A stretch of 64,000 nucleotides of DNA from Pseudobutyrivibrio sp. ACV-2. Its GTDB lineage: Bacteria; Bacillota; Clostridia; Lachnospirales; Lachnospiraceae. This document shows positions 16,732 through 61,715 of this stretch, piece by piece. Within the stretch, counting starts at the first letter, position 1; the number at the start of each line of letters is the position of its first letter. Below the pieces are notes generated by a model. It searched no databases. It was not told the origin of the DNA and was given only the letters and a program-made list of their open reading frames with translations. The position numbers and the translations under genes are program-made. The stretch covers positions 124,001 through 188,000 of the forward strand of contig NZ_FNQZ01000004.1 in assembly GCF_900107545.1 (NCBI RefSeq). The letters run 5' to 3'.

Positions 16732-18196
16732 AAATGTATTTAAGTCAATGCCTCTTAGAAAAAAGATGATTTTGGTATTCTGTTTACCTACCATTTTGCT
16801 TTTCATGGTAAATATGACTCTTTACTTAGGAACAAACCGAATGCTAAATAGCCTGGATGCAGTTTATGCCAGCAACAATTCTTTAAATGATTTATCGGAG
16901 GCTTTAGACAACCTTCAAATTTCCACAAGCGGATATCTGGGCACCAAAACAAGCGATGCCTTGGAACAGTATTATATTGCAGAACAGGATTTTGCAAATT
17001 TATTAGATAAATTTGACGCAAATAAGGACGATAACGAGGGCAGGGTGTTAGAGAGAAACATCCGAATTATGTCCTCAAACTATATAACCCTTACCAGTCA
17101 GGCTGTGGAAAGCAAGCGTGGTGGTAATGTTGAAAAATATAAAAATTATTATGATACAGCCACCAGACTATACAATTATATAGATACAAATATTACCAGC
17201 CTAAACAATCAGCAGTTTGTAAACAATTCCAAGTCATACAGTGCCATGATGGGGACTCTTCAAACTATAGAAGAGCTAAATATATTGACTCTGATTTTAA
17301 TAGGCATGGCAAATCTATCTTTTGTAGTTTTGATAGCATCGACTATCACTGAGCCACTTATCAAGCTGGCGGCTGCAGCAAATAGAGTTTCAAATGGAGA
17401 TTTTGAAGTATCACTTCCACAGGTAAAAAATAACGACGAGATAGGTGTTGTGACCAGAGCCTTCAACAAGATGGTGGCCTCCATCAAGGCATATATCACC
17501 AAGCTTACAGAATCCATGGAGACAGAGCGTAGACTCAAGGAAAATGAGCTTATTATGGCAAATCACGTTAAAGATGCGGAGCTTAAATATCTCCAGTCTC
17601 AAATTAATCCCCATTTTCTGTTTAACACATTAAATGCAGGTGCCCAGCTGGCCATGATGGAGGGGGCAGACCGCACAAGCGAATACATGCACAATGTGGC
17701 AAATTTCTTCAGATACAACATCAAGAAAAACAAGGATGTTGTGACCTTAAAAGAGGAGATTGAGCTTGTAGATATCTATATTTACATTATCAACGTCCGT
17801 TTTGCCGGGGAAATCCAATTCGTAAAGACGGTAGACGAAAGTCTTTTAGATGTTAAAATCCCAAGCATGATACTACAGCCAATTGTTGAAAATAGTATTA
17901 ACTACGGTATCAGAAACATAGACTGGAATAAGAAAATATCTCTTTCCGTTTATGAGTTGGGAGATTATACCTGTGTCAGCATAAAAGACAATGGAATTGG
18001 AATGAGCCAGGAGACCATCACAAAGATTTTAGAAGGCAGCTATGAGGGCAACCCGAAAAAATCTGACTCCAATGGAGTGGGGCTTTCTAATTGCATAGAA
18101 CGTTTGAACATCTTCTATGAAAGAGACGATGTTTTAGATATCATATCAGAAGGAGAAAACCAGGGCACCGAAACCTTGCTATATTTACCGAGATAA
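16724..18196 (+). CDS. YesM-family sensor histidine kinase
   Basis: Membrane kinase that should phosphorylate the following response regulator. The 490-residue protein has membrane segments near 16-36 and 187-208 around an extracellular helical sensor, a HAMP domain (about 208-262), the His_kinase domain with H-box SQINPHFLFNTLN (His297), and a C-terminal HATPase with N-box LQPIVENSINYGI and G-box GVGLSNCIERL. The start overlaps the upstream binding protein, whose AGGAGGCAGAAG end carries the ribosome site. Like other YesM proteins the extracellular part has no obvious ligand pocket, consistent with a partner binding protein sensing the sugar. Confidence 0.92.
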   Translation: MTKNVFKSMPLRKKMILVFCLPTILLFMVNMTLYLGTNRMLNSLDAVYASNNSLNDLSEALDNLQISTSGYLGTKTSDALEQYYIAEQDFANLLDKFDANKDDNEGRVLERNIRIMSSNYITLTSQAVESKRGGNVEKYKNYYDTATRLYNYIDTNITSLNNQQFVNNSKSYSAMMGTLQTIEELNILTLILIGMANLSFVVLIASTITEPLIKLAAAANRVSNGDFEVSLPQVKNNDEIGVVTRAFNKMVASIKAYITKLTESMETERRLKENELIMANHVKDAELKYLQSQINPHFLFNTLNAGAQLAMMEGADRTSEYMHNVANFFRYNIKKNKDVVTLKEEIELVDIYIYIINVRFAGEIQFVKTVDESLLDVKIPSMILQPIVENSINYGIRNIDWNKKISLSVYELGDYTCVSIKDNGIGMSQETITKILEGSYEGNPKKSDSNGVGLSNCIERLNIFYERDDVLDIISEGENQGTETLLYLPR

Positions 18197-18200
18197 ATTT

Positions 18201-18246
18201 GCCTTCCCCCCATGGGAAAGGTGGCCCGAAGGGTCGGATGAGGGCG
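18201..18246 (+). repeat. Two-hairpin intergenic palindrome (GGGAAAGG...GGATGAGG family), copy 1
   Basis: The first arm pair is CCTTCCCC with GGGAAAGG (imperfect), followed by TG, a second stem GGCCC-GAA-GGGTC (18223-18235, one G-T pair), then GGATGAGGG. It lies between the kinase stop and the ribosome site of the regulator gene and shares its template with copies near 37698, 40436 and 44231. Confidence 0.75.
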
Positions 18247-18264
18247 TGTCTAGGAGCTTAAACA

Positions 18265-19857
18265 ATGTACAAAATAATGCTAGCCGATGACGAGGGCATC
18301 GTAATTGACTCCCTCAAATTTATAATTGAAAAACAGTTTGGCAGTCAGTGTGAAATCCGTGCAGCCAAAACAGGCCGTCAGGTTATAGAGCTTGCTGAGG
18401 AATTTCAGCCGGATATAGCTTTTATGGATATTCAGATGCCAGGTATCAATGGCATTGAGGCCATGCGGGAAATACGTCGCACCAACAACCATGTGGTGTT
18501 CATCGTCATGACAGCCTATGACAAATTTGATTATGCCAAGGAAGCCATATCTCTTGGGGTGCTTGATTATCTGAACAAACCTGTGAGCCGAGAGGACATA
18601 CTTCGTATCCTAAACAAGGCCATGGCCAAAATAGACGGAGAACGTAGCAAGCGAAGTGATGATTTAAAGGTTCGTGAAAAGCTTGAGATAGTAGTTCCTA
18701 TCATCGAAAATGGCTTGATTCAGGATTTGCTGTTCAAGGAATATTTCAAGGAGGACATAGACAACTACAAGACCCTTCTTGGTATCGACTGCGACTATGG
18801 CTACATGGCTTGCATGGTGTTTGGACGTGAGCTTGTAGGAAACTATATGACCAGTGCGGTTGCAGCATCTATTCAGGCTCAGAAATCCTACAAGGAAATC
18901 CACACTATTACAGATGACTATATAAAGGGAATCATGGGAAATGTCATGTCCAATAAAATTCCAATCCTGATTCCATGCGAAAATGATACATTATCCTACA
19001 ACGAACGAAACAGAGTAGTGGAAAATGCCAGAGCCCTGTGTAGAAAGCTTGCAGACAGATTTGATATGGATTTTAGAATTGGTTTTGGTTCTGTGAAGCC
19101 ACTAGAGCGCATGGGAGAGTCCTACGAGGAAGCCAATTCCGTACTGATTCAAAACACCAGCCATGTGGCGCATGCCGATGATATGCCAGTGGCCTGCCAG
19201 TACGAGTCCAACTATCCAAGCGATTTGGAGAAGCGTCTTTTTGATGAGATTACTCTTGGAAATATAAATGAAGCGGTTTCTATCTCTCAGAACTTTTTCG
19301 AGTGGATGGAGGACACCTATGGAAACGACATGGACAGTATCCGACTGAAATGTATGGAATTTGTCCTATGGGCAGAGCACCTGGCTTACGAAAAAACAGG
19401 ACGAATGTATGAGTTTAAGAGCCGTGCAAATTATCTGTCAGAGCTTATGAATCTTGCCAATCTGCCTGAAATGAAGGCCTGGTTTGTGGAAAAGATAAAA
19501 TCTGCAACCTTCTGGGTCTCAAACAAACAGGAAGAGCAGTCAATGAGTGCTGTGAACAAGGCTAAACAATACATCGATGAGCATTATATGAAGGAACTCA
19601 CACTTGATGACGTATCGAGAGTGGTAAATATCAGTTCATATTATTTCTCGAAGGTTTTCAAGGAGGAGACCGGGGAGAATTTCATCGATTATCTTACAAG
19701 ACTGCGTATAGATGCAGCCAAAAATCTTCTGAAGACTACAAACAAGTCCATGAAGGAGATTTCAGCAGATGTTGGCTACTCTGATCCAAACTATTTTTCC
19801 AGAAACTTTAAAAAGTACACTGGAAAGACACCGACAGAGTTCCAAAAGGGAGAATAA
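18265..19857 (+). CDS. YesN-family AraC-type response regulator
   Basis: DNA-binding output of the sensor system, 530 residues. The receiver domain carries Asp8-Asp9, the phospho-acceptor Asp55 (FMDIQMPG) and Lys105-region KP. A long middle region follows, then an AraC/XylS double helix-turn-helix at about 430-528 (LTLDDVSRVVNISSYYFSKVF; MKEISADVGYSDPNYFSRNFK). The start follows AGGAG by about nine bases. Expected target: the monosaccharide importer 1.4 kb downstream, whose promoter has a 20-bp-spaced direct repeat. The next gene starts five bases after its stop. Confidence 0.93.
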   Translation: MYKIMLADDEGIVIDSLKFIIEKQFGSQCEIRAAKTGRQVIELAEEFQPDIAFMDIQMPGINGIEAMREIRRTNNHVVFIVMTAYDKFDYAKEAISLGVLDYLNKPVSREDILRILNKAMAKIDGERSKRSDDLKVREKLEIVVPIIENGLIQDLLFKEYFKEDIDNYKTLLGIDCDYGYMACMVFGRELVGNYMTSAVAASIQAQKSYKEIHTITDDYIKGIMGNVMSNKIPILIPCENDTLSYNERNRVVENARALCRKLADRFDMDFRIGFGSVKPLERMGESYEEANSVLIQNTSHVAHADDMPVACQYESNYPSDLEKRLFDEITLGNINEAVSISQNFFEWMEDTYGNDMDSIRLKCMEFVLWAEHLAYEKTGRMYEFKSRANYLSELMNLANLPEMKAWFVEKIKSATFWVSNKQEEQSMSAVNKAKQYIDEHYMKELTLDDVSRVVNISSYYFSKVFKEETGENFIDYLTRLRIDAAKNLLKTTNKSMKEISADVGYSDPNYFSRNFKKYTGKTPTEFQKGE

Positions 19858-49390: not shown

Positions 49391-50272
49391 TTACAACTTC
49401 AACTTCTTCAAATACCGTAAATAATCCTCAGCATAAGGATTTATGCATTTGGTGTTATCCCAGATAGCGATGTAGTCAGATGTGAAACTAAGTTTATAGG
49501 TGACATGACTTTTGGAGTCTAATAGGGAGCTAAATGCATTGGCGATAGTAAAGCACCTGCCTGAACGAAGGAAAAGCTCTACAGAATCCATGCTGTCTAA
49601 ATACATGATTTCCACAGGCATGTCACCTATAGTAGCTTTTAAATTAGAAAAATATTTCTCTTTTAAGGTATTAGGCAAATTCTTTGGGAGAAAAAGGGTA
49701 GTGTCCTTTATTTTTTGTAAATTTATGTGCCCATTTTCAAAGCCTGGATGAGTGTTTTTTGCCACAAGATAGTAAGGGGTAGGATTTGCGGTAAGTTGAA
49801 GAGAAGAGTAACCTGTTATTTTTTCTGCAAACTCCTTCTGACACACCACAACCTCGCCATTTTCAAGGGCTTTCACGAAATCTGTGGCCTCAATAAAATT
49901 GGTGAAATGATGAAAATTAGGGTGAGATTCCATGTAGCTTGCAGTCGCTTCAACTATAACATCTGGTATTCTTATACCTCGCATAAAGTTGATAATGAGA
50001 GGCTTTTCGGCTGATTTTATATTAATTGAAGCCAGAGTATCCTCATAGATTTTTTTACATTTTATAAGACCATCATAATAGCTCTTACCTGTATCGGTGA
50101 GAGTTATTTTTCTTTTTACAGAGCGGTCGAAAAGCTTGAAGCCAAGCTCTGCCTCCAATGAATTAATATGTCTGGTGACAGCAGGCTGAGAGATGAAAAG
50201 CTCCTCTGCTGTTTTTGTATAGTTAAGAGTCTCTGCCAGAATTAGAAAGCAGGTTATGTCTTGTATAGTCAT
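49391..50272 (-). CDS. LysR-family transcriptional regulator
   Basis: A 293-residue regulator with the N-terminal winged helix (LAETLNYTKTAEELFISQPAVTRHINSLEAELGFKLFDR, residues about 11-49) and a substrate-binding-fold effector domain from about 90. It diverges from the acyl carrier protein/thiolase gene cluster with 126 bases between start codons, the usual arrangement for a LysR protein that controls the neighbouring operon. The effector is unknown. Confidence 0.9.
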   Translation of the reverse strand: MTIQDITCFLILAETLNYTKTAEELFISQPAVTRHINSLEAELGFKLFDRSVKRKITLTDTGKSYYDGLIKCKKIYEDTLASINIKSAEKPLIINFMRGIRIPDVIVEATASYMESHPNFHHFTNFIEATDFVKALENGEVVVCQKEFAEKITGYSSLQLTANPTPYYLVAKNTHPGFENGHINLQKIKDTTLFLPKNLPNTLKEKYFSNLKATIGDMPVEIMYLDSMDSVELFLRSGRCFTIANAFSSLLDSKSHVTYKLSFTSDYIAIWDNTKCINPYAEDYLRYLKKLKL

Positions 50273-50326
50273 TTTTAAAACCTCATAGTTTGATATAACA
50301 AAAACATTATAACAGATTCATTATCG

Positions 50327-50360
50327 GTATTGGAATACAAATATCCACTCCACATATAAT
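50327..50360 (+). promoter_or_regulatory. Promoter and candidate LysR site for the ACP/thiolase cluster
   Basis: The inverted repeat GTATT-GG-AATAC (50327-50338) overlaps the expected -35 position of a promoter whose -10 is TATAAT (50355-50360). The -35 itself is poor, as in many activator-dependent promoters. Assignment to the divergent LysR protein is inferred from position. Confidence 0.45.
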
Positions 50361-50398
50361 AAACATAGTTGATACGAAATCTAAGGAGGATATTTATT

Positions 50399-50638
50399 AT
50401 GTCAAGAGAGGAACTTATAAAGAACTTAATCCAGTATGCAGCACTTGCTTTCAAGGTAGATGCTTCAACACTTACAGAGGATACAAACTTAAATGAACTT
50501 GGTACATCATCTGTTCAACGTGTGGCTATGTCTGCAGCTATCGAAAATGAGTACGATGTTATGATTCCAGTTGCTCGTTTTGGAAACTTTGAAACTATCT
50601 CAAAGCTTGCAGATTTTGTAATGGATGAGGCAGAGTAA
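50399..50638 (+). CDS. Acyl carrier protein (non-canonical)
   Basis: A 79-residue helical carrier protein. The phosphopantetheine site is expected at Ser38 in LGTSSVQRV, where housekeeping ACPs have DSL, so this is a specialised carrier rather than fatty-acid AcpP. ATG 50399 follows AAGGAGG; an upstream extension to 50369 would run over that site. It is the first gene of the cluster with thiolase, DUF35 and MFS genes, and it probably holds the acyl group they work on. Confidence 0.88.
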   Translation: MSREELIKNLIQYAALAFKVDASTLTEDTNLNELGTSSVQRVAMSAAIENEYDVMIPVARFGNFETISKLADFVMDEAE

Positions 50639-50666
50639 TTACAACACTATTAAAGGGGAAATTATA

Positions 50667-51956
50667 ATGGTACACAATGTAAAATTGGGAAAAAACATGA
50701 GAAGTGTTTCCATCGTCGGAATCGGTGCTACACCTTTCATGAACACTATAAAAAATGATACCTATCATGGCATTACAAATGGTGAGCTTTTTGGCCATGC
50801 AGCTTTAGATGCCATGAAAGATGCTCACGTAGAGCCAAGGGATGTACAGTATTTCTTCCATGGTTCGGCCAATCCACATGTTATGTTTCATGCAATCACT
50901 CCAAACCTTCAGGTAGCTGACTGGTTTGGTATGAGAGGAAAGGGGTCAATCTCTCATTCAGAAGGTTGCTGTACAGGTTATATCGCACTTGAGGAAGCAG
51001 TATTTGCAGTTGCTTCAGGTGCATACGACATCGTTCTTACCGGTGCCTGCGACATGGGTACTGGTATGCCAGATGGCAATACACCAGACCACATGCGTGT
51101 AGAGCTTTCAACAGAAGTCCTCTTCCCTGATTTGGATTCTATTTTTGATAGAGCTTACGGTCGCTACTTGGGTGGGGGGCCAGGTATGAACCATGATGAT
51201 TGGATTAACCTCTACGCTCATGAGAATAATCTTACACCAGATCAGATTGACGATGTGTTAAATCACCAGTCATATCACATGAGACGTGCAGGCGCTCTTT
51301 GCCCACGTGCAATCCGTAGAACTACATTTGACGATATGGCAAAAGAGGCTGGATATGATGATGTTTGGGAGTACATGAAGAGCCCACACAATCCAAAAAT
51401 GACCCAGTACTTAAGAACAAGCTCTGATTCCTGCGTTGCCGATGGTGCAGCAGCATGTATCGTAGTTCCTACAGAAATTGCTCATCAGTTTACAGATAAG
51501 CCTATCGAGGTTCTTGCAACAGGTGCATCTGTACTTGATGCTATTGTTCCACACCTTGAGAAAAAGGCCACTGCGGAGGCAGCCCGTCAGGTATTTGAGG
51601 CAACAGGTCTTACAGCTGATGACATGGATCTTGTAATGGTAAATGACTTTATTGGTTCATCTGCATTCCTTGCAGCAGAAGAAATCGGATACCTTCCAAA
51701 GGGTGAGGGCTGGAAATACGTTCTTGAAGGACGTACAGCTTTTGATGGCGACAAGCCAATTAATACAAACGGCGGACGTACATCCTATGGTCACGCTTTC
51801 GGTGCTTCTGGTCTTGCGGATGTATTTGAGGCTGTTACTCAGATGAGAGGTGAAGCAGGTCTTCGCCAGGTTAAGAAGCTTCCAAAGCACGTATTTTTAC
51901 GCGGATTTGGTGGCGCTCAAAATGTACGTGCAACAATTCTTAGGGCAGGATTTTAA
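50667..51956 (+). CDS. SCP2/lipid-transfer-type thiolase
   Basis: A 429-residue thiolase-superfamily protein. The nucleophile region is EGCCTGYIAL with Cys101-Cys102, and the C-terminal histidine motif GHAFGASG has His376. The other conserved histidine motif (usually HDxF) reads NDFI, with Asn326 in the histidine position. Such thiolases commonly work with a DUF35 protein to transfer or condense acyl groups; the DUF35 gene is 11 bases downstream. ATG 50667 follows AGGGGAA; the frame is open further upstream, overlapping the ACP gene. Substrate unknown. Confidence 0.88.
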   Translation: MVHNVKLGKNMRSVSIVGIGATPFMNTIKNDTYHGITNGELFGHAALDAMKDAHVEPRDVQYFFHGSANPHVMFHAITPNLQVADWFGMRGKGSISHSEGCCTGYIALEEAVFAVASGAYDIVLTGACDMGTGMPDGNTPDHMRVELSTEVLFPDLDSIFDRAYGRYLGGGPGMNHDDWINLYAHENNLTPDQIDDVLNHQSYHMRRAGALCPRAIRRTTFDDMAKEAGYDDVWEYMKSPHNPKMTQYLRTSSDSCVADGAAACIVVPTEIAHQFTDKPIEVLATGASVLDAIVPHLEKKATAEAARQVFEATGLTADDMDLVMVNDFIGSSAFLAAEEIGYLPKGEGWKYVLEGRTAFDGDKPINTNGGRTSYGHAFGASGLADVFEAVTQMRGEAGLRQVKKLPKHVFLRGFGGAQNVRATILRAGF

Positions 51957-51967
51957 GGAGGAGCAAA

Positions 51968-52408
51968 ATGGAAAATCAAAATACAATTAAGACAGAAGAC
52001 TTCTGGAATCCTGAACACATTGTTGAGAAATTCTGGAATGGTCTTGCAGAAGGAAAGGTTTTAGCAAGAAAGTGTAAGGAATGTGGTGCTATCGAATTTC
52101 CTCCACATCTTGCATGTAATGAATGTGGATATCATGAGACAGAGTGGGTAGAGCTTAGTGGAAAAGGTACTCTGAAAAGTTTTGTATTCACAGGTATCTT
52201 AAATGCCAGACTGGAGCTTGAGGACAAAGGTCTTAAGTACGTGTGTGGAGAGGTTCAGCTTGAGGAAGGACCTTCAATCAACGCTGTAATCCTTGGAATT
52301 TCTAAAAAGAAGGGTCGCGAAATTGAGCCAAAACTCCCTCTTCCAGTGAAGCCGGTATTCTACGATATGGGTAGATACACTACACTATTTTTTGAACTGG
52401 ATGAATAA
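51968..52408 (+). CDS. DUF35 OB-fold protein with zinc ribbon
   Basis: A 146-residue partner protein. The N-terminal helix leads to a rubredoxin-like zinc ribbon with Cys36, Cys39, Cys50 and Cys53 (CKECG, CNECG), followed by an OB-fold (ELSGKGTLKSFVFTGI). In archaeal HMG-CoA-forming thiolases and in the PhlACB acyltransferase, a DUF35 protein scaffolds the thiolase and shapes the acyl channel (established for those systems). AAGGAGGAG precedes the ATG. The MFS gene follows after five bases. Confidence 0.92.
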   Translation: MENQNTIKTEDFWNPEHIVEKFWNGLAEGKVLARKCKECGAIEFPPHLACNECGYHETEWVELSGKGTLKSFVFTGILNARLELEDKGLKYVCGEVQLEEGPSINAVILGISKKKGREIEPKLPLPVKPVFYDMGRYTTLFFELDE

Positions 52409-52413
52409 GAGAC

Positions 52414-53559
52414 ATGAGTAAAAAAGTAAGATTATATATATCGATAGCGTCAATCTCTTTGATTCAGGGATTGCAGATAGCAATGTCCCCCATGATTGGC
52501 GCCATCGGAACTCACTATTCAAATATTGATGTGAGTTTGGTGCAGATGCTTATTACAATTCCTGCATTTGTATGTGTGATATCATCCATTGTTTCAGGAT
52601 GGCTTGTGTTAAAGGTCAGCAAGAAAAATCTTCTGCTTTTTTCATGTGCCATCGCTGGAATAGCAGGCTTGCTACCGCTTGTTGCAGATGATTTTTACCT
52701 GTTATTTGCGATGCGTGCTATTTATGGAATTCCACTTGGAATCTGTACTGCACTTAATACAGCTGTAGTATCAGAATTCTTTGAGGGTGATGAGAGAGTA
52801 TCAGCTATGGGCTTTCAGGCCGCCAGCGTAGGTGCTGGAATGATGGTGCTTTCAGCTATAACAGGTTGGCTTGGTAAAACATATTTTGCAAATTCATATT
52901 ATGTAAATATAGCAGCTTTTATATCACTGGTAGCCATACTTGTTTGTCTTCCAGACACAGGAAAAGCTGTTGAAACTGAAAATGAAAAGGTAGCCCTTAA
53001 TTCCAAGGTGGTTCCTGTATATATCTTTGCATTCTTGGAGATGTTCTTTTTAATTACGTTCTCTACCAACATTGCAATGCATATCGGTGGAAGCCTTGCC
53101 GGGGACAGTGCAGTTTCAGGAATGCTTACAAGTGTTTTTGCAGGAGCTCAGATTATAGTGGGACTTATCCTTGGAGTAATCACAAAAATTACAAAAAAGA
53201 TGGTGCTACCTACAGCCATGCTGAGCTTTGCCATCGGAGCAGCACTTCTTGTAATGTTCCCTGAAAACTATGGGATGCTTATTGTAGCTGCTTTATTTTG
53301 CGGTTTTTCGCAGGGAATATATATGCCATCAGGATTTGTTGAGGTAAGTAATGCAGTGCCTCCTGTTGCAGTTGCTCTTGCCAGTGCAGGCTTTACAGCA
53401 GCGGCAAACTTTGGTCAGACCGTATCACCATATATCACAAATACTTTGTCAAAGGTATTGTTTGGAGATGCAACCACAACTGGCGTCTATATTATTTCCG
53501 CTATAGGAATGACATCGTCTGCAATCGCTTATGCTTTCGTAAAGAAAAAATTAAATTAA
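52414..53559 (+). CDS. MFS transporter
   Basis: A 381-residue, twelve-helix major facilitator protein without an obvious drug-family motif. The cytoplasmic 2-3 loop reads VSKKNLLLFSCAIAGIAGLL and the central loop is short. The start is five bases after the DUF35 stop, so it belongs to the ACP/thiolase operon and likely exports the product or imports its precursor. Direction of transport is not decidable from sequence. Confidence 0.87.
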   Translation: MSKKVRLYISIASISLIQGLQIAMSPMIGAIGTHYSNIDVSLVQMLITIPAFVCVISSIVSGWLVLKVSKKNLLLFSCAIAGIAGLLPLVADDFYLLFAMRAIYGIPLGICTALNTAVVSEFFEGDERVSAMGFQAASVGAGMMVLSAITGWLGKTYFANSYYVNIAAFISLVAILVCLPDTGKAVETENEKVALNSKVVPVYIFAFLEMFFLITFSTNIAMHIGGSLAGDSAVSGMLTSVFAGAQIIVGLILGVITKITKKMVLPTAMLSFAIGAALLVMFPENYGMLIVAALFCGFSQGIYMPSGFVEVSNAVPPVAVALASAGFTAAANFGQTVSPYITNTLSKVLFGDATTTGVYIISAIGMTSSAIAYAFVKKKLN

Positions 53560-53567
53560 AAATGAAG

Positions 53568-53594
53568 AGGGTTCTCAAAATGAGAGCCCTTTTG
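53568..53594 (+). terminator. Intrinsic terminator of the ACP/thiolase operon
   Basis: AGGGTTCTCA (53568-53577) pairs with TGAGAGCCCT (53581-53590), followed by TTTT. It closes the cluster before the PRD regulator. Confidence 0.85.
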
Positions 53595-53637: not shown

Positions 53638-55587
53638 ATGGGAAAAATCAATATTCCTTCAAGAGAAAAGAAAATACTGTCCCTATTGAATTCTAAGCAT
53701 GGGATAGTCACGGGAAAGGAGCTTTCAACACTAATAGGTGTCAGTGAGCGTACCATTCGAAGTGATGTAAGTCATATCAACACTGCACTTAGCCAGGCAG
53801 GTGTACAGGTGGTGGCTGTTCATGGCAAGGGCTACACCATCCAGGTGGATGACAGGAATGTTCTGCTTCAGATTTTTTCAGAGGATCAAAACTACATCAC
53901 CAAGGAAGACAGGTTAAATACACTACTTCTAAAGCTACTGCGATATGATGGCTGGTATGATTTGGGAATTTTAGAGGATGAAATGTATATCAGTAATACC
54001 ACTCTTGAGAAGGATATCAAGATTCTTGGAAAAATGATATTTTCACAGCATCCTTATTTGAAAATTGAGCGAAAGGACAATTCTATTCGTCTGGCAGATG
54101 AAGAAAAAAAGAAACGTGATTTATTTGCCAGATTTTATGCAAAAAACTGGGATTACGATTCCAAGGAAGGTATCGTTTTAAAGCATGAAGAGTTCAAAGA
54201 GGATTTGCTTAGAGATATTCAAAAGCAGGTAAAAAATACGCTTTTTGAGTCTGGCACACATCTAGATGACTATGCCTTTATTTATCTTACTTTGGCTATT
54301 GCTGTCATGCTTTTTAGGGTAAAGAACGGACATACTATAGATAATTACGATGATGATGTTCAAATAGACCCAGATATAAAAATAGTTTTAGATACTCTGG
54401 CATCTGCGCAGAATATAGTTTTATCCCAAGGTGAATATTATTATCTGTCTCAAATAAAGCAGCAGCTGGAATTCCTTTGTCTTAAGACTTATTCTAAAAA
54501 CTATGTTTTAAATAATACGGATATACGATGTCACGGAATAGTAAATGATTTGCTTGCTGAGTTGTATCGTATATACGGTATTGATTTCATGGAGGATGAC
54601 AAGCTTTTTGTGGATCTGACTCGTCATGTTCAGGCACTTGTCAGTGGTATTGTGGCACCTCATTTACAGAATCACGTTTTGGGCGATGAGCTAAGAAAGA
54701 AGAATCCATTTTTAGGTGATATAGCCCATTACATGGGTAACTATCTTTCAGAAAAATGCCAAATTGCTCTTGGAAAAGAAGAGGAGGATTATCTGCTGCC
54801 ATTTATCATGCTTTCCGAGGAAGCACGCTACAATAAAAAACGAGGGCAGGGAATACCTACAGCTGTAATCAGCCATTACAACGAAAGCATGACCCACTAT
54901 CTGATGGAAGAATTGCGTCGCTACTATGGTGGAGTACTGGATCTGCATGGACCATATTCGATGCACAGTAAAGAGCAGATTGAAAAGGATAGTATTCAGT
55001 TTGTACTTACTACAGTAAAGATGGATGATTTCAGAAAATATTTTAACACCCCTGTTTTGACAGTATCACCAATTCTTTCGGAAGATGACAGGGCAGGAAT
55101 TGAGTTGTATCTGACCAGCTTGAAAATAAAATATTTATACCAGGAACCAAAGCTTCAGATGGACAAATATTTCCTGCCAGAGCTTTGCTACAGACTGCCT
55201 GATAAGAGTAATCTAAATACTGCTTTTTTCTATATAGAGAAAACATTAAAAGAACAGACAGGAATAACTAGCCTTAAATCTTTTGATTTAGACGAGGATT
55301 ACTACTGTAGCTTGAATAATGGATTTTTATTTTGCTATCAGGTTTGCAATGAGATAAAGCAAACTGTGGTCAGCCTGGTAGATTTGGGAAAGGATTTGTC
55401 TTGCAAACAGCGTAGAAATATAAAGACAGTGATGTACGTGCTGATGCCAGCAAAGGAAATGCACAGCCTTGGTCGATTCTATTACATGGCCATGGCCTTC
55501 GCCCAGTACCAAAAAGAATTGAAATCTCTATTTGACGGGACTTCCATTGAGGATTTGACTTTTAATATTAGCAGAGGATTGGAATAA
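53638..55587 (+). CDS. PRD-containing BglG/MtlR-type transcriptional regulator
   Basis: A 649-residue regulator with an N-terminal HTH_11 (VTGKELSTLIGVSERTIRSDVSHIN, about 25-50), a second helix-turn-helix region (about 110-150), at least one PTS regulation domain (LTRHVQALVSGIVAPHLQNHV near 335), an EIIB-like segment (IQFVLTTVKMDDFRKYF) and a C-terminal EIIA-like region without a clear phospho-histidine. Regulators of this layout normally control PTS sugar genes, but none is nearby. It has its own AGGGAG site and follows the terminator of the ACP cluster. Confidence 0.85.
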   Translation: MGKINIPSREKKILSLLNSKHGIVTGKELSTLIGVSERTIRSDVSHINTALSQAGVQVVAVHGKGYTIQVDDRNVLLQIFSEDQNYITKEDRLNTLLLKLLRYDGWYDLGILEDEMYISNTTLEKDIKILGKMIFSQHPYLKIERKDNSIRLADEEKKKRDLFARFYAKNWDYDSKEGIVLKHEEFKEDLLRDIQKQVKNTLFESGTHLDDYAFIYLTLAIAVMLFRVKNGHTIDNYDDDVQIDPDIKIVLDTLASAQNIVLSQGEYYYLSQIKQQLEFLCLKTYSKNYVLNNTDIRCHGIVNDLLAELYRIYGIDFMEDDKLFVDLTRHVQALVSGIVAPHLQNHVLGDELRKKNPFLGDIAHYMGNYLSEKCQIALGKEEEDYLLPFIMLSEEARYNKKRGQGIPTAVISHYNESMTHYLMEELRRYYGGVLDLHGPYSMHSKEQIEKDSIQFVLTTVKMDDFRKYFNTPVLTVSPILSEDDRAGIELYLTSLKIKYLYQEPKLQMDKYFLPELCYRLPDKSNLNTAFFYIEKTLKEQTGITSLKSFDLDEDYYCSLNNGFLFCYQVCNEIKQTVVSLVDLGKDLSCKQRRNIKTVMYVLMPAKEMHSLGRFYYMAMAFAQYQKELKSLFDGTSIEDLTFNISRGLE

Positions 55588-55672: not shown

Positions 55673-57718
55673 TTACCATACTGCGATTCTGTCAGCAGGT
55701 GCAATATACATTCCGTCAGTGGCTGTGATTCCGTAGGTATTTAGGAATTCGTCATACTGAGCCAGAACAAGGTTTGTACGCAGGTAAGAAAGAGGATGAG
55801 GATCCTGTGACATACGATATAACTCATTTTCTGATGTCATTAATCGACGCCACATTACTGCATAATTGGTGAAGAATTTATTGTAGTCAAAGTTTGGTTC
55901 TTTTGCAGCAAGGCTAAGCATACATTTTACACCAGCCATGTCAGCGATAGCTTCGCCGCTTAACATTACACCATTGCAGTTGCCCATTGTATCGCTTACT
56001 TTGAGATTATCAAAATAAGTAGTTAATTTCGAAACTCTGCCATTGAACGCAGCTTTGTCTTCAGCTGTCCACCAGTCAGCCAGTGCACCAGAGGCATCAA
56101 ACTGTCCGCCTCTTGAATCAAAGGCATGAGAGATTTCATGGCCTATAACCGCACCAATGCCGCCGTAAATTTCTTCTTTTGTCATATTCTCATTGTAGAA
56201 CACTCCACCACAGATACCAGGAATAATATTGATTGAGTTATCTGTGAAGCTGTAGTATGAGTTAACCATATACATGATGCTGTAATCCCAGTAATTACGG
56301 TCTTTTGTTGTTTTATATTTTTTATAATTGTCCTGACACCAATATCTCATGGCTATTAATGAAGCTACAACAAGGTTGCCACCTTCAGATTTTGGTATTA
56401 ACACTAAACCGCTGTGGTCTATGAGTTTATCAGGCTTTACTGCATGTATAACCATAGAATCTAGCTTGTGTATAGCGGCATCTTTTGTTTCCTGAGACAT
56501 CCACTCCTCATTTGCAAGCATTGTTCGGTAGTAGGCGATAGAATCCTTGATGACGCCCTCAATATCTTTTTTCATCTTGTCAGATGTGAAATTGTTAATG
56601 TAAACGTTATCAATAACTGTAGAAAGGTTATTTTCAGCTGTGTCTAAATAGTACTGATCATCAGATTTCATACCAGACACACCAAAGGCGTCATTTTGTA
56701 TTTTTTGTGTTGTCTCATAGGTCTCCCTGTCCAAAATATCACTAAAGTAGACAACAGTATGAACTATAAAATAATTCTTCATGAGAGATAAGTTCTTTTT
56801 GTTGTAAAGCTTGCCTACAGAAGCCAAATATTTTGGGTTTTCGGCTACGACATTGTCTATATCTGTAAAGCCTACACTATTAAGAATACCCTCAATAGGG
56901 TAATTTCCCAGGAGTGCTTTAGCATCAGCTAAAGGGATAACGTTGTTGATTTTTTCATAATAGTCAAGTGCGTTCTGGTCGTCTTGGGTATACATGTTTT
57001 TGGCAAGAAGGGCTTCATAAGCAAAACAGTCCTTTATGATTTTCTTTGTTTCCCTTGACGAGTATCCCATACGCTTTAGCATATAGCTGGCTATATCAGT
57101 GTACATATCCTTATAGATGGAACCTAAATCGGACAGTGTAGTATAGTCGTTTGCATCAGGTAAAAATAATACACCTTCAGAAATGTTTAAAGCATATTTC
57201 GTTGGATCATCAAAGGAAACAGTGCTGTAGTAGCTAACTATTCCGTTTTCAAGTACGTTTGCATCGGGATTTACAAGAAATTTGTTCATCTCATCCAGGG
57301 AAGAAATGTTGCGGATAGAATCAATAAAAGGGATTATTGGTGCATATCCTAAAGCATTTCTTGTATCCCAGTCAGAGAGAAATTCATAATAGGTATGAAA
57401 AAGCTGTTGGTCTAAATCGTCTGAATCAGACTTTTTCATTATTTCAATTAAATTTGCATCATTTTGCTCCTGAAGAATACCAAACTCTCCATAGTTGTCT
57501 TTGCCGGCAGGAATTGCAGTCGATGTAAGCCAATCGTGATTTACTGTAGTGTAGAAATCATCCTTGATATTGTAGGCTTCGGTTACTGATACACTTCCCA
57601 TCTGAGATGGATCCTTCCAGGCATCAGGGGCTGCTAAGGCTGTAACACTGGATTGCAATGCCAGCGCTAAAGCAATAGCAATAGAACAGGTCGCTCTAAA
57701 GTATTTTTTGATTAGCAT
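55673..57718 (-). CDS. pepO: Secreted M13-family metallopeptidase (neprilysin-like)
   Basis: Zinc endopeptidase that trims peptides outside the cell. The 681-residue protein has a signal peptide (about 1-29, ending ALAA), the M13 N-terminal lobe (DDFYTTVNHDWL) and the catalytic lobe with HEISH at 527-531 (His527, Glu528, His531), third ligand in GEAIADMAG, and the substrate-binding block NAFYN-equivalent GGVFYNENM. The final YRMSQDPHPLSYLRTNL block and short tail are typical. It lacks the usual CxxW ending, ending in Trp (RIAVW). AAAGGAGACTAC precedes the ATG. Confidence 0.92.
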   Translation of the reverse strand: MLIKKYFRATCSIAIALALALQSSVTALAAPDAWKDPSQMGSVSVTEAYNIKDDFYTTVNHDWLTSTAIPAGKDNYGEFGILQEQNDANLIEIMKKSDSDDLDQQLFHTYYEFLSDWDTRNALGYAPIIPFIDSIRNISSLDEMNKFLVNPDANVLENGIVSYYSTVSFDDPTKYALNISEGVLFLPDANDYTTLSDLGSIYKDMYTDIASYMLKRMGYSSRETKKIIKDCFAYEALLAKNMYTQDDQNALDYYEKINNVIPLADAKALLGNYPIEGILNSVGFTDIDNVVAENPKYLASVGKLYNKKNLSLMKNYFIVHTVVYFSDILDRETYETTQKIQNDAFGVSGMKSDDQYYLDTAENNLSTVIDNVYINNFTSDKMKKDIEGVIKDSIAYYRTMLANEEWMSQETKDAAIHKLDSMVIHAVKPDKLIDHSGLVLIPKSEGGNLVVASLIAMRYWCQDNYKKYKTTKDRNYWDYSIMYMVNSYYSFTDNSINIIPGICGGVFYNENMTKEEIYGGIGAVIGHEISHAFDSRGGQFDASGALADWWTAEDKAAFNGRVSKLTTYFDNLKVSDTMGNCNGVMLSGEAIADMAGVKCMLSLAAKEPNFDYNKFFTNYAVMWRRLMTSENELYRMSQDPHPLSYLRTNLVLAQYDEFLNTYGITATDGMYIAPADRIAVW

Positions 57719-57848: not shown

Positions 57849-57892
57849 AAACACAAAAGGTGTCCCAAATCTGAGGGGCACCTTTTGTGTTT
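57849..57892 (-). terminator. Terminator overlapping the end of the FGGY kinase gene
   Basis: An 18-bp stem (57849-57866 with 57875-57892, one G-T pair) is followed by T-rich sequence on the minus strand. The stem begins inside the stop codon of the kinase gene. Confidence 0.88.
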
Positions 57893-59450
57893 AGAAACTC
57901 GCTATCGTATTCTGAAGTCTTGCCAAATCACCATCCAAATGCTTATACATTTCGATATAGTAAGGATATAGCTTGTCATAAGCTTCTTCCCACTCAGGGA
58001 TAGGCTCTATGACTTCTTTTATTTTAACCATTTTTTTAACAGCTTCTGAAAGGTCAGGATATATTCCTACAGCGTGACCTGCTAAAAGAATATCTCCGAA
58101 AGGAACATCTCCTGAAATATCATCTAGCACATACACCGGCATGTGAAGCATGGAAGCTTTTATTTTGTTCCAGGTTTTAGACTTAGAGCCACCACCTGTA
58201 ATACGTAGGTTTTCAGCTACACCACCTGCATCTTTGATGGAATCCATTACATGGCGAAGTGCAAATGCAGTGCCTTCAAAAATAGCGCGAATGATGTGAG
58301 CTCTATCTGTTGTGAGATTAAGTCCGATAAACATTCCTCTGGCGTGAGAGTTCCAAAGTGGCGCCCGCTCGCCACCAGCCATATACGGGTAGAAGAACAA
58401 TCCGTCTGAGCCTGGATTCACTTTCATTGCAACTTTATTCATATAATCGTAGATGTTTTTTCCTGCTTCGATGGAGCTTGCTACATCGGCCTCACCCATT
58501 TGCTCCACGTACCACCTGATGGCAGCGCCAGTAGTTCCGATAGGACCATCATAGACGAATGGCATAGTCTCAAGGCCAACAGGTCTGGTGACAACAGGAA
58601 CATCGCAGGCACTAGCATTTGGAGCGCTGGCAAATATAAGTGAGGAAGTGCCTGCACTTTCGCCAGCATCACCAAGCTTTGAAAGGCCGATAGCATACAT
58701 GGATGCCATGGCATCGGAACAACCAGCCACCACAGGAGTGCCTTCTGCAAGACCAGTTTGTGATGCAGCTTCCCTTGTAACATACCCAATTATCTCAGTA
58801 CAGTTTTTGACTGGTGGCATAATATCAGAAAGTGAAACTCCGATAGCGTCACCCACTTCATCTGCCCAGTCAAGGGTGGTTAAATTCATAAGCTGAGTTC
58901 GGGATGCAGTATCTACATCGATAGTAAGCTCCCCCGTGAGCTTATAGTTAAGGTAGCTGTTGGCCTGCATGATGGTGGCAGTTCTTTCAAATTCCTCTGG
59001 CAGATTTCTCTTGAACCAGAGAATTTTTCCAGGAAGAAATGCTACGCTTGGCTGTCCGCCAACGATTTTAACGAAATTATCATATCCAATTTTTTCAGTA
59101 ACCTCATTTGTTTCTGTCACTGAACGGCCATCGGCATAAATGATGGCATTGTGAACAGGTTCACCATTTTCATCAAGTGGTAGAAGAGTAGGACACTGCG
59201 AGCTGATAGAAATTCCTTTGATATTGTTTACCACATCGTCCCCTGCCAATGCAGTCATATATTTAAGGATTGCAATGGTGCTGCTCCACCATTTATCAGG
59301 ATCCTGTTCAATCATGTTTTGTCCTGGAAAAATTTTCCCAAGTCTGCGAGATGCAGTAGCAATTAAATTGCCATCAGTATCCATAATATTGCCCTTGACA
59401 TTAGTAGTTCCAAGGTCAATACCTAAAAGATAATTCTTTTCTGAATTCAT
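57891..59450 (-). CDS. FGGY-family carbohydrate kinase (xylulokinase-like)
   Basis: Phosphorylates a sugar, most likely a ketopentose. The 519-residue protein has the N-terminal ATPase motif LLGIDLGTTNVKGNIMD, the substrate region EQDPDKWW, the catalytic Asp in VVAGCSDAMASMYAIG, and the C-terminal block RITGGGSKSKTWNKIKASMLHMPV. The start is ATG 59450, seven bases after GGGAGG; other in-frame starts at 59456 and 59465 lie on the ribosome site. Xylulokinase is the best guess; other FGGY substrates are possible. It diverges from the flavoenzyme gene. Confidence 0.87.
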   Translation of the reverse strand: MNSEKNYLLGIDLGTTNVKGNIMDTDGNLIATASRRLGKIFPGQNMIEQDPDKWWSSTIAILKYMTALAGDDVVNNIKGISISSQCPTLLPLDENGEPVHNAIIYADGRSVTETNEVTEKIGYDNFVKIVGGQPSVAFLPGKILWFKRNLPEEFERTATIMQANSYLNYKLTGELTIDVDTASRTQLMNLTTLDWADEVGDAIGVSLSDIMPPVKNCTEIIGYVTREAASQTGLAEGTPVVAGCSDAMASMYAIGLSKLGDAGESAGTSSLIFASAPNASACDVPVVTRPVGLETMPFVYDGPIGTTGAAIRWYVEQMGEADVASSIEAGKNIYDYMNKVAMKVNPGSDGLFFYPYMAGGERAPLWNSHARGMFIGLNLTTDRAHIIRAIFEGTAFALRHVMDSIKDAGGVAENLRITGGGSKSKTWNKIKASMLHMPVYVLDDISGDVPFGDILLAGHAVGIYPDLSEAVKKMVKIKEVIEPIPEWEEAYDKLYPYYIEMYKHLDGDLARLQNTIASF

Positions 59451-59607
59451 TCCCATTCCTCCCAATTATTACTTTCTCCTAAGGGTAATTTATCACTGTC
59501 AATCACAACGGTTCAATTTCACGATTTCCGCCAACGAGCGGAAATAATAAAATTGCGTGGGAGTTTTTTCGTGGGTAAAGTGAGTACATAAAATAAATTG
59601 TCAGCGA

Positions 59608-59747: not shown

Positions 59748-61715
59748 ATGTCAACACGATACCCAGGTAAGGATCTATATCCAAACTTATTTAAGTCTAT
59801 AAGAGTAGGAAATTTAAAACTCAAGAACCGAATCATCGCGGCTCCAACCAGTCCAAGCATGATTACAACAGAGGGTCTGTTTACCCCAGAGATGGCAGCC
59901 TACCTAGAGGAAAAGGCTTTAGGTGGTAGCGCAGTTGTTACCTATGGTGAGGCAATTCCTCATTCTAAAACAGGAAAGAGCCATAACAAGCAGCTTCAGC
60001 TAGATGCCTTTGGTGTGCGTCAGGGACTGACTGAGTCTACTAGAATGATTCACAATGCAGGAGCACTTGCAAATATTCAGCTTTCTCACGGTGGAATGTA
60101 TGGTGGCCTTGCTTCTGTTGGTGGGGATATCGGAAAAACTGAAAAAGCCTATGGTCCAAGTGAAATGGACATGCCAGCAGGTCACGTATATGAAATGCCA
60201 AAGGAGCTTATATATGAAATCATCGAATCCTATGGAAAGGCTGCAAAGCTTTGCAAGGATGTAGGGTATGACATGGTTCAGGTTCATGCAGCCCATGGAT
60301 GGCTTTTCAACCAGTTCCTTTCTCCGATTTTCAATCACAGAACCGATGAGTTTGGTGGCTCTTTAGAAAATCGTGCAAGATTTTTATCACTTACTCTTGA
60401 TGAGGTAAGAAAGAATCTTGGTCCTACAGTTGCAATCGAGCTTCGTATGAATGGTGATGATTTCCAGGAGGGTGGACTTACACTTTCTGATTATGTGGAA
60501 ATTGCAAAGATGGTTGAGGATAAGGTTGATATGTTCAACATCTCTTGTGGAAATCATGAGGATCCTGCAATGTTCTGCCGCACTCATCCAAACTCATTCT
60601 TCCCAAGGGGCGTAAATGTTTATCTTGCAGCTGAAATTAAAAAGCATGTGAATAAACCTGTTGCCTGTGTTGGTTCTTTGAACGACCCAGCTCAAATGGA
60701 GGAAATCATCGCAAGCGGTCAGGCTGACATGGTGGAAATCGCACGCGCTCTTGTGGCAGATCCTTACTTGCCAAAAAAGGCTCTAGAGGGTAGAGCAGAT
60801 GATATCAGCCCATGCTTGAGATGCTATGAATGCTTTGGGGCAACAGGCCAGCTTGAAATGATTAAATGTACTGTAAACCCAACTCAGGGTCAACAGCTTG
60901 AAGAAAAATACGGTGTTCCAGCACCTGAATTTAAAAAGAAAATTCTTGTTGTGGGCGGTGGACCAGCAGGTATGGAGGCCGCTATCACTGCAGCAAATCG
61001 AGGACATGATGTCACTCTTGTAGAGAAGGATTCTCGTCTTGGTGGAAATCTTCATCCAGCAGGAAGTGCATTCTTCAAAGAGGATATCAAAAAGCTTTGT
61101 GGCTGCTTAGAACGCAGAGTTGAAAGAGCCGGTGTAAAAGTGGTCTTAAATACAACAGTAGATGTGGATTATGTAAAGAAATTTGCACCAGATACACTTT
61201 TCGTAGCAATCGGCTCAAACGAGCTTAAGCCACCAATCAAAGGCATTGACGGTGATAACGTAATCATGGCCATCGATGCTGAGCTTCATCCTGAAAAATT
61301 GGGCAAGAAGGTTGCCATTATGGGTGGTGGACTTGTAGGTGCTGAGGCAGCATGCTCATTCAAGGCTGAAGGCCATGAAGTTTCAATCATCGAAATGAAG
61401 CCAGATGTAGCAATGGAGGTTAACTCATTCTATCGTGGTGGTCTTATGCCTCACGTACATGAGAGCGCAACCTGCTACGTAAATACGAAGGTAACAGAAA
61501 TCACAGACAAGGGCGTTATGGTTGAGAACGCAGATGGTAGCTTCCTTGTAGAGGCTGACAGCGTAGTGTGTGCATTTGGTTTTAGACCTAAGACAGCAGA
61601 AGTAGACGCACTTTGTGATTGCGTAGATGAGTACTACGTAATAGGCGACTGCAACAAGGTTGCCATGATTTACCAGGCAATGGATGCAGGATATCACGCA
61701 GCTAGAAGAGTGTAG
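59748..61715 (+). CDS. OYE-type Fe-S flavoenzyme (FadH/BaiCD-like NAD(P)-dependent reductase)
   Basis: Three-domain reductase of 655 residues. The FMN barrel (about 10-345; NLKLKNRIIAAPTSPS, QLSHGGMYGG) is followed by a 4Fe-4S cluster on Cys356, Cys359, Cys362 and Cys374 (CLRCYECF...KC), a FAD motif VVGGGPAGMEAA near 400 and an NAD motif IMGGGLVGAEAA near 520. Relatives include 2,4-dienoyl-CoA reductase, the bile-acid enzymes BaiCD/BaiH and enoate reductases. The real substrate, probably an alpha,beta-unsaturated acid or related compound, is unknown. The ribosome site GGGAGG sits just after the palindromic element. Confidence 0.88.
   Translation: MSTRYPGKDLYPNLFKSIRVGNLKLKNRIIAAPTSPSMITTEGLFTPEMAAYLEEKALGGSAVVTYGEAIPHSKTGKSHNKQLQLDAFGVRQGLTESTRMIHNAGALANIQLSHGGMYGGLASVGGDIGKTEKAYGPSEMDMPAGHVYEMPKELIYEIIESYGKAAKLCKDVGYDMVQVHAAHGWLFNQFLSPIFNHRTDEFGGSLENRARFLSLTLDEVRKNLGPTVAIELRMNGDDFQEGGLTLSDYVEIAKMVEDKVDMFNISCGNHEDPAMFCRTHPNSFFPRGVNVYLAAEIKKHVNKPVACVGSLNDPAQMEEIIASGQADMVEIARALVADPYLPKKALEGRADDISPCLRCYECFGATGQLEMIKCTVNPTQGQQLEEKYGVPAPEFKKKILVVGGGPAGMEAAITAANRGHDVTLVEKDSRLGGNLHPAGSAFFKEDIKKLCGCLERRVERAGVKVVLNTTVDVDYVKKFAPDTLFVAIGSNELKPPIKGIDGDNVIMAIDAELHPEKLGKKVAIMGGGLVGAEAACSFKAEGHEVSIIEMKPDVAMEVNSFYRGGLMPHVHESATCYVNTKVTEITDKGVMVENADGSFLVEADSVVCAFGFRPKTAEVDALCDCVDEYYVIGDCNKVAMIYQAMDAGYHAARRV

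Follow-up and report, generated by a model that had tools for sequence, protein, structure and literature searches.

A candidate carrier-protein-dependent thiolase-DUF35 operon for anaerobic carbon-carbon bond cleavage in Pseudobutyrivibrio sp. ACV-2 and its relatives

Complexes of a thiolase-fold protein with a DUF35 zinc-ribbon subunit have been described in several functional variants. In PhlACB (PpATase) of Pseudomonas, the C-acylase of 2,4-diacetylphloroglucinol synthesis and the precedent for acyl transfer independent of coenzyme A (CoA), the thiolase subunit PhlC forms an acyl-enzyme: Cys88 becomes acetylated, and replacement of either Cys88 or His56 abolishes activity, according to the available text of PMC6392133. 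The structure of a related complex, MucABC of Streptococcus macacae, has been solved. Other thiolase-DUF35 systems (6esq, 7pxp) act on CoA substrates and have no acyl carrier protein (ACP), while the Ltp2-ChsH2 (6ok1) and Sal-Shy (9myr) aldolases are retro-aldol enzymes on acyl-CoA. Here we describe an operon that combines a PhlC-like thiolase and a DUF35 protein with an ACP. It is found in a 64,000-nucleotide stretch of contig NZ_FNQZ01000004.1 of Pseudobutyrivibrio sp. ACV-2 (hereafter the window; all positions are numbered within it).

The operon lies on the forward strand and begins with the gene for a 79-residue ACP (50399-50638; PF00550, PP-binding, 42.4 bits), whose phosphopantetheine Ser is located within the motif LGTSS and whose best score among the ordinary ACP models of NCBIfam is 30.2 bits against the 66 required. 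It is followed by the genes for a 429-residue SCP2/PhlC-type thiolase (50667-51956; Thiolase_C_1, 111.4 bits), for a 146-residue zinc-ribbon/OB-fold DUF35 partner subunit (51968-52408) and for a major facilitator superfamily (MFS) protein (52414-53559; PF07690, MFS_1, 126.1 bits). The DUF35 protein carries a ChsH2-type zinc ribbon (PF12172, zf-ChsH2, 34.8 bits, above the cut-off), with the OB domain slightly below its threshold (PF01796, OB_ChsH2_C, 26.6 versus 27.1 bits). The matches of the MFS protein in NCBIfam are all sub-threshold, and this putative transporter may serve either import or export. A LysR-family regulator (49391-50272, reverse strand; PF00126, HTH_1, 66.9 bits) is divergent from the operon. 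An earlier note on this DNA had named these five genes and drawn four of them as a tight operon divergent from LysR; the Pfam profiles over all five, and gaps of 28, 11 and 5 bases at the ACP/thiolase, thiolase/DUF35 and DUF35/MFS junctions, bear it out. The terminator that it assigned to the operon is likely to exist, as a strong hairpin 3' of the MFS gene (approximately 53565-53593, forward strand, -18.5 kcal/mol, z = -4.9, with 0 of 200 shuffles equally good), although a consensus terminator scan did not list one there.

Among the described systems the window thiolase resembles PhlC (5mg5_C, Z 43.2 over 359 residues, 26% identity) and MucABC (9vbo_E, Z 42.0), and it shares with PhlACB the Cys at the nucleophile place and the DUF35 partner. 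Thus, the comparison with PhlACB drawn in the earlier note, with an ACP in place of the KAS-III-like subunit, holds: no counterpart of PhlA was found in the operon or in any identified family of recurrent neighbours (not every neighbouring reading frame having been scanned). Unlike PhlACB, the operon has a dedicated ACP, its relatives add a phosphotransacylase (PTB), a kinase and a phosphopantetheinyl transferase (PPTase), and the whole is probably catabolic. We propose, with a probability of about 0.55, that the window operon encodes the enzymes for carbon-carbon cleavage in an anaerobic catabolic pathway in which a carrier protein takes the place of CoA. After uptake, a plant-derived compound would be converted by neighbouring enzymes, through reduction or rearrangement, to a 1,3-dicarbonyl, one carbonyl of which the thiolase/DUF35 complex would attack via Cys101, the remainder being freed in a retro-Claisen or retro-Friedel-Crafts step. 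The acyl group would then leave Cys101 for the phosphopantetheine arm of the ACP encoded in the operon, a transfer for which the acyl-enzyme at Cys88 of PhlC offers a precedent, the ACP having been converted to its holo form by a PPTase whose gene is linked to the module. A divergent PTB that has lost the arginines which bind the phosphate of CoA would convert acyl-ACP and inorganic phosphate to acyl phosphate, from which a member of the butyrate kinase (BUK) family would generate ATP and the free acid.

In the thiolase, Cys101 aligns with the thiolase nucleophile (the Cys of 7yvy, 6esq and 7pxp) and is a Cys in 94 of the 95 homologues with a letter at that place; His376 aligns with the active-site His of the GH[PA] motif and is kept in all 97. 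His65 (94/95), His97 and Cys102 are likewise conserved, and His65 precedes Cys101 by 36 residues, the distance from His56 to Cys88 in PhlC being 32. By spacing from His376, the places of PhlC Ser349 and Asp352 would read F378 and S381. The place of the C-terminal second Cys reads GFGG or GYGG in the 14 aligned rows; in classical CoA thiolases the second catalytic Cys lies in a CxG motif near the C-terminus. The AlphaFold model of the thiolase (pLDDT 76.1) has as its closest folds the archaeal thiolase/HMG-CoA synthase, SCP2 thiolases, BbsAB, PhlC and MucABC, with Z between 42 and 44.5; these top neighbours have equal or almost equal scores, and the function of the modelled protein cannot be read from its fold alone. 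The nearest solved chains of the DUF35 protein include DUF35 subunits of thiolase-like complexes. Membership in a known degradative subfamily, which the earlier note had named as a danger to its view, was not found: the Thiolase_C_1-type protein is not placed in a curated degradative family, as it reaches no NCBIfam cut-off among the 25 of 44 matches listed, the best score being 165.6 bits against 420 required.

Searching the genome collection yielded 121 stretches that encode relatives, of which 80 were retained as named loci, and family profiles were placed on all their reading frames to map the module. These loci contain 81 thiolase places, many from related species and some sharing one genome; exclusion of the 18 that lack 2.5 kb on both sides left 63. 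DUF35 adjoins the thiolase in 61 of these 63 and is fused to it in the remaining two (L126, L127), and in 60 an ACP gene lies on the same strand no more than 2 kb away. Fused thiolase-DUF35 frames occur in four genomes (L126, L127, L039, L191), which supports the prediction that the two proteins form a physical complex. The phosphopantetheine Ser is aligned as Ser in all 92 module ACPs; genes under two locus identifiers are included in the 97 thiolases and 92 ACPs, of which 86 and 81, respectively, are distinct. The module occurs mainly in Lachnospiraceae and also in Streptococcus (S. ovis, S. orisasini, "S. caviae" and S. moroccensis), Collinsella, Olsenella and other Coriobacteria, Oscillospiraceae, and one Anaerolineales bin. 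Few genomes of the Lachnospiraceae have it: 5 of 150 reach E <= 1e-60, including the genome of the window and one distant relative. A strain-specific curiosity is ruled out by this spread and by the conserved gene set. The objection foreseen in the earlier note, that the gene order would not extend beyond this strain, fails for ACP-thiolase-DUF35, which recurs well outside it, whereas the MFS gene directly after DUF35 varies even within the genus. The order ACP-thiolase-DUF35 characterizes the window-type places, defined by a thiolase of at least 80% identity; the others mostly have thiolase-DUF35-ACP, after which PTB-BUK comes in Coriobacteria and Streptococcus. Considering the places with flanks of at least 5.5 kb (n = 50, 25 window-type and 25 other), PTB and kinase are both present within 6 kb in 22 of the 25 non-window-type places, while among the window-type ones a PTB is found within that distance in 10 and a kinase in 6. 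We also observed a distant thiolase-DUF35 pair (272.6 bits) in L192 (G110:C3:1-14000), next to which two genes look by eye like those of a malonyl-transferase and a carboxyltransferase; farther along there is an AcpS-like gene.

The window's own genome encodes a second thiolase, 51% identical to that of the window, on contig C26, together with DUF35, ACP, PTB, BUK and an AcpS-type PPTase. In a survey of 29 genomes of the genus, the window-type thiolase was found in six and the paralogue (51-53% identity) in eight, all six being within the eight. The paralogous module thus accompanies the window-type thiolase in 6/6 genomes and is found in 2/23 of the remaining ones (hypergeometric p approximately 6e-5, computed by hand and ignoring relatedness). 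PTB and BUK are present in all eight paralogue loci of the genus, and in P. xylanivorans MZ8 the two thiolases are separated by only about 9 kb. Since PTB, kinase and AcpS sit with the paralogous module on C26, the window operon would have to borrow them, and we infer that it does.

The first of three indications of a carrier comes from the PTB. It is a member of PF01515 (289.9 bits for the L037 copy, cut-off 24) and shares the catalytic Ser-Arg pair with Pta and Ptb, but does not reach the cut-off of the curated Pta family TIGR00651 (252.0 bits for L004 and 251.4 for L064, 311.2 needed); its partner kinase passes that of butyrate kinase TIGR02707 (372.2 and 362.0 bits for the same loci, 289.1 needed). 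In MaeB of Bdellovibrio, R535 contacts the 3'-phosphate of acetyl-CoA, R535A and R535E abolish binding, and R581 meets the pyrophosphate, as given in the available text of PMC7902834. We located R535 by comparison of the R535A chain 6znr with the wild type 6zn9, as the Arg of YSLRQRKG, and R581, 46 residues further on, as the Arg of DAVRPIL, the Pta alignment also serving to fix the positions. By motif, these residues correspond to R87 (YELRKHKG) and R133 (DTLRPAV) of Methanosarcina thermophila Pta, which we take to be residues that bind the phosphates of CoA. Three groups were compared: 46 distinct module PTBs, 29 ordinary Pta controls, taken from the window's own genome and from the 30 loci that scored best in 39 genomes of the order, and a Ptb-like set of 22 hits, only two of them past the TIGR02706 cut-off, which was reduced to 21 because L151 is a Pta by tree. 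The first Arg is present in 29/29 Pta and in 0/46 module PTBs (Pro in 38), and the second in 27/29 Pta (one Lys and one Gly in the others) and 0/46 module PTBs (35 Leu, 8 Ile, 2 Met, 1 Thr); neither position has an Arg or Lys in any of the 46. The Lys three residues after the first Arg (K538 of MaeB) shows the same distribution (29/29 versus 0/46). The second position is Lys or Arg in 20/21 Ptb-like proteins and 28/29 Pta, and no module PTB has a basic residue within three columns of it. All 46 retain the catalytic Ser-Arg and have Glu at the place of Asp316. Taken together, the loss of the CoA-phosphate arginines is suggestive of carrier use by this putative enzyme.

Phylogenetically, a single clade (100/98) comprises 51 of the 52 PTBs found in these loci, and the 52nd (L068) is an ordinary Pta. 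Six of the 52 are farther from the thiolase, namely L068 and five members of the module clade (L057, L101, L119, L123, L124); these five have no Arg at either column, and three of them have an Arg in the column after the first. In four of the five (L101, L119, L123, L124; approximately 16,400-19,270, reverse strand), all Coriobacteria, the PTB belongs with a kinase to a second, divergent pair, encoded close to the main module but on the other strand; the three PTBs with the neighbouring Arg are among these four. An ordinary Pta is also present in 17 of 18 hand-picked module genomes, all 18 of which have a divergent, sub-cut-off copy. The proposed reaction, acyl-ACP to acyl phosphate, is of the same type as that of PlsX, the acyl-ACP:phosphate acyltransferase that acts on long chains in phospholipid synthesis. 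A weak PF01515 match (26.2 bits) on contig C38 of the window's genome may be PlsX itself.

The PPTase follows the module within the genus. A PPTase frame of 210-246 codons occurs in all 29 genomes; 7 of the 8 module genomes have, next to the module, a second, short AcpS-type frame (129-153 codons), which none of the 21 others has. In other lineages some loci have an Sfp-type PPTase, and a PPTase of either kind lies within 9 kb in 6/25 window-type and 11/25 other places. In L119, L123, L124 and L125 we noted an Sfp-type PPTase and a further ACP about 6-7 kb upstream of the thiolase, the pair being followed in L123 by an S15-peptidase-like protein. It is the divergent PTB, the ordinary Pta kept alongside it and the module-linked PPTase that together argue for the carrier rather than CoA, and the earlier idea of an acyl group travelling via a carrier thus appears right in that part. 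The suggestion of a minimal pathway ending in export fares less well: the set is larger, extending to PTB, butyrate kinase, PPTase, flavoproteins of the ene-reductase type and, in part of the loci, genes for glycoside cleavage, and it looks catabolic rather than like minimal synthesis and export.

Several observations weigh against our proposal. An Arg or Lys occupies the column adjoining the first position in 6 of the 46 module PTBs, and the Ptb-like proteins, taken to be CoA users, also lack the first-Arg segment (21/21, L151 excluded), so that only the second site separates all three groups. The change in PTB is common to one clade and does not represent many independent events. No ACP was found near the thiolase in 3 of the 63 places (L097, L113, L114), and 15 of the 25 window-type places have no PTB or kinase within 6 kb. 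CoA-dependent SCP2 thiolases are among the fold neighbours with equal Z. Finally, the reactions are reversible and may also run in a synthetic direction.

This last point leads to a biosynthetic alternative, which we consider unlikely. Kinase and PTB would activate a short-chain acid of the gut to acyl-ACP, the thiolase and DUF35 would C-acylate a nucleophile, reductases would finish the product and the MFS protein would export it. The reversibility of every step, the role of PhlACB as a C-acylase (PMC6392133, available text), the relationship to MucABC and the MFS gene within the operon all favour this direction. However, the neighbours look catabolic, with C-glycoside deglycosidase, a sugar-type transporter and a Gfo/Idh/MocA oxidoreductase in some loci and a sugar kinase and class II aldolase in others, and no ketosynthase or ligase was seen among the recurrent neighbour families identified. 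Moreover, the regulators differ between lineages: in the mapped loci LysR is beside the ACP only in Pseudobutyrivibrio, and elsewhere PRD, AraC, PucR and TetR regulators are found.

Quite unlikely, in our opinion, is an ACP that merely acts as a structural or loading partner, with a CoA-using thiolase and with PTB and kinase acting on acyl-CoA as in ordinary fermentation. It would agree with the CoA chemistry of several of the nearest solved relatives (6esq_A, Z 44.5, and 7pxp_C, Z 43.6, at 24-26% identity to the window thiolase, as well as the SCP2 thiolases) and with the missing first-Arg segment of the Ptb-like proteins. Against it speak the second position of the module PTBs, the PPTase that tracks the module within the genus, and the invariant Ser of the ACPs. 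Very unlikely is a retro-aldolase of the Ltp2-ChsH2 type that would cleave beta-hydroxyacyl-ACP, despite the identical two-subunit make-up, the ChsH2-derived names of both DUF35 Pfam models and the presence of Ltp2 and Sal-Shy among the fold neighbours (Z 39.2 and 39.4). Ltp2-type aldolases are not known to use the Cys and have catalytic tyrosines instead, whereas Cys101 and His376 are almost invariant here, and several Cys-type thiolases score higher (Z 42-44.5 versus 39). A simple copy of PhlACB can be dismissed as the main explanation, as no PhlA was found in the operon or among the identified neighbour families.

If the carrier-based catabolic pathway that we favour is real, the dedicated carrier would constitute a separate thioester economy in the cell, shielded from the CoA pool, and DUF35-thiolases would gain a catabolic role on a carrier protein. 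In the known fermentations, the ATP gained from a thioester comes from acyl-CoA. Among the titles and abstract beginnings covered by our literature searches, we found no published description of a carrier-protein thiolase module. It is tempting to go further and to envisage a carrier-protein branch of fermentation, with carbon-carbon cleavage by the thiolase/DUF35 enzyme, ACP as the thiol acceptor and substrate-level phosphorylation from acyl-ACP by way of a PTB that has ceased to recognise CoA, linked to C-glycoside deglycosidases (CGD) and serving a later step in the breakdown of C-glycosides or polyphenols in the gut, on the hexose enediolone or an acylphloroglucinol-like aglycone; this more specific version we hold only tentatively, at somewhat less than even odds.

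The neighbouring genes provide hints about the substrate. In 18 of the 25 window-type places an old yellow enzyme (OYE)-type reductase (a strong match, with a score of at least 300) is found within 9 kb on the same strand, and class II aldolase, iron-containing alcohol dehydrogenase and 2-hydroxyacid dehydrogenase occur in 13 each; an FGGY kinase is on the same strand in 4 and often on the opposite one. Most coriobacterial loci of the Olsenella type have a fumarate-reductase-like flavoprotein (VPR) with NuoG-like and NuoF-like subunits; the label "OYE" for the coriobacterial genes was rejected, because their scores are low and the NuoG-like protein matches far better. CGD beta subunits (CGDB, PF19906) are found inside 8 of the 80 named loci, and in a ninth case (L053) one lies about 1.4 kb beyond the locus. 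The number expected by chance is about one, as calculated from 58 copies in 26 genomes (about 80 Mb in all) and 1.24 Mb of loci, a rough figure that ignores relatedness and the choice of the genomes, which were hand-picked and include loci already known to hold CGD genes. CGDB is absent from the window and from 9 of the 26 module genomes, among them those with the fullest window-type clusters (L059, L064), which speaks against a fixed link. The CGD genes in some loci suggest plant glycosides or polyphenols as the substrate, and the recurrence of the module beside plant-glycoside genes in some gut bacteria makes it a candidate for those steps of glycoside or polyphenol breakdown that have a chemistry but no enzymes.

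In two Pseudobutyrivibrio genomes, CGDB and the paralogous module are located in one island. That of P. xylanivorans spans about 22.5 kb on one strand and encodes first NuoG-like, NuoF-like, VPR, CGDB, CGD-alpha-like, AraC, Gfo/Idh/MocA and AraC proteins, then an FMN reductase, a sugar transporter, another FMN reductase, BUK, thiolase, DUF35, ACP, PTB and AcpS. The island on C26 of the window's own genome is similar but contains additional genes in between and an inserted ABC-transporter block; this block (L193:5442-10563), as labelled by eye, comprises an apparent ABC transporter (a binding protein, an ATPase and two permeases) and a phosphoesterase-like gene.

C-glycoside deglycosidases release 1,5-anhydro-D-erythro-hex-1-en-3-ulose (available text of PMC8563793), and the conversion of this hexose enediolone to 3-oxo-glucose is called not elucidated in the available text of PMC10539306. 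The candidate substrate may be a sugar-derived 1,3-dicarbonyl or a compound of the acylphloroglucinol or reduced-phenol type. A side group of loci (L035/L097, L186, L188, L096), near which no ACP was found, has two TIM-barrel isomerase-like proteins, a VOC protein and an aldo-keto reductase before thiolase-DUF35, a cassette that points to sugar-derived dicarbonyls. Next in L097, L186 and L188 come an IolE-like protein and an oxidoreductase that, by eye, resembles Gfo/Idh. LsrF-like thiolysis of a sugar 1,3-diketone was set aside as a named reaction and kept as an idea about the substrate. Against the aglycone, module-bearing Catenibacillus is reported to encode a phloretin hydrolase for that cleavage, and the available text of PMC11170127 does not mention a thiolase. 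The phloroglucinol cluster of Clostridium scatologenes resembles our scheme in anaerobic carbon-carbon cleavage after ring reduction and in the acetate and butyrate kinases among the proteins seen there, but we set it aside as an explanation because its enzymes are different: it employs a cyclohydrolase together with a lyase of the BKACE type and has steps that involve CoA, no ACP or DUF35 being mentioned in the available text of PMC10470551.

Downstream of the operon, the window encodes a PRD-domain regulator (53638-55587, forward strand; PF00874, PF08279) that recurs with window-type modules, its family having 25 members in 25 loci, some of which are one place under two identifiers. Two further recurrent neighbours are an FGGY carbohydrate kinase (57891-59465, reverse strand; PF00370/PF02782), which is below the NCBIfam cut-offs (best XylB, 300 versus 380 required), and an OYE/2-enoate-reductase-type flavoprotein (59748-61715, forward strand; PF00724, 202 bits), which falls under the BaiCD and mycofactocin-OYE cut-offs. 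Just beyond the end of the window (L005) are the iron-containing alcohol dehydrogenase, class II aldolase and 2-hydroxyacid dehydrogenase. The genes of the PRD regulator and the FGGY kinase are separated by that of an M13-family peptidase (55673-57718, reverse strand), which seems to have nothing to do with the module. Elsewhere in the same genome (C37:234082-263748), several PP-binding domains within open frames of 1473-2109 codons, with a PPTase of Sfp length nearby, mark a probable nonribosomal peptide or polyketide synthase cluster.

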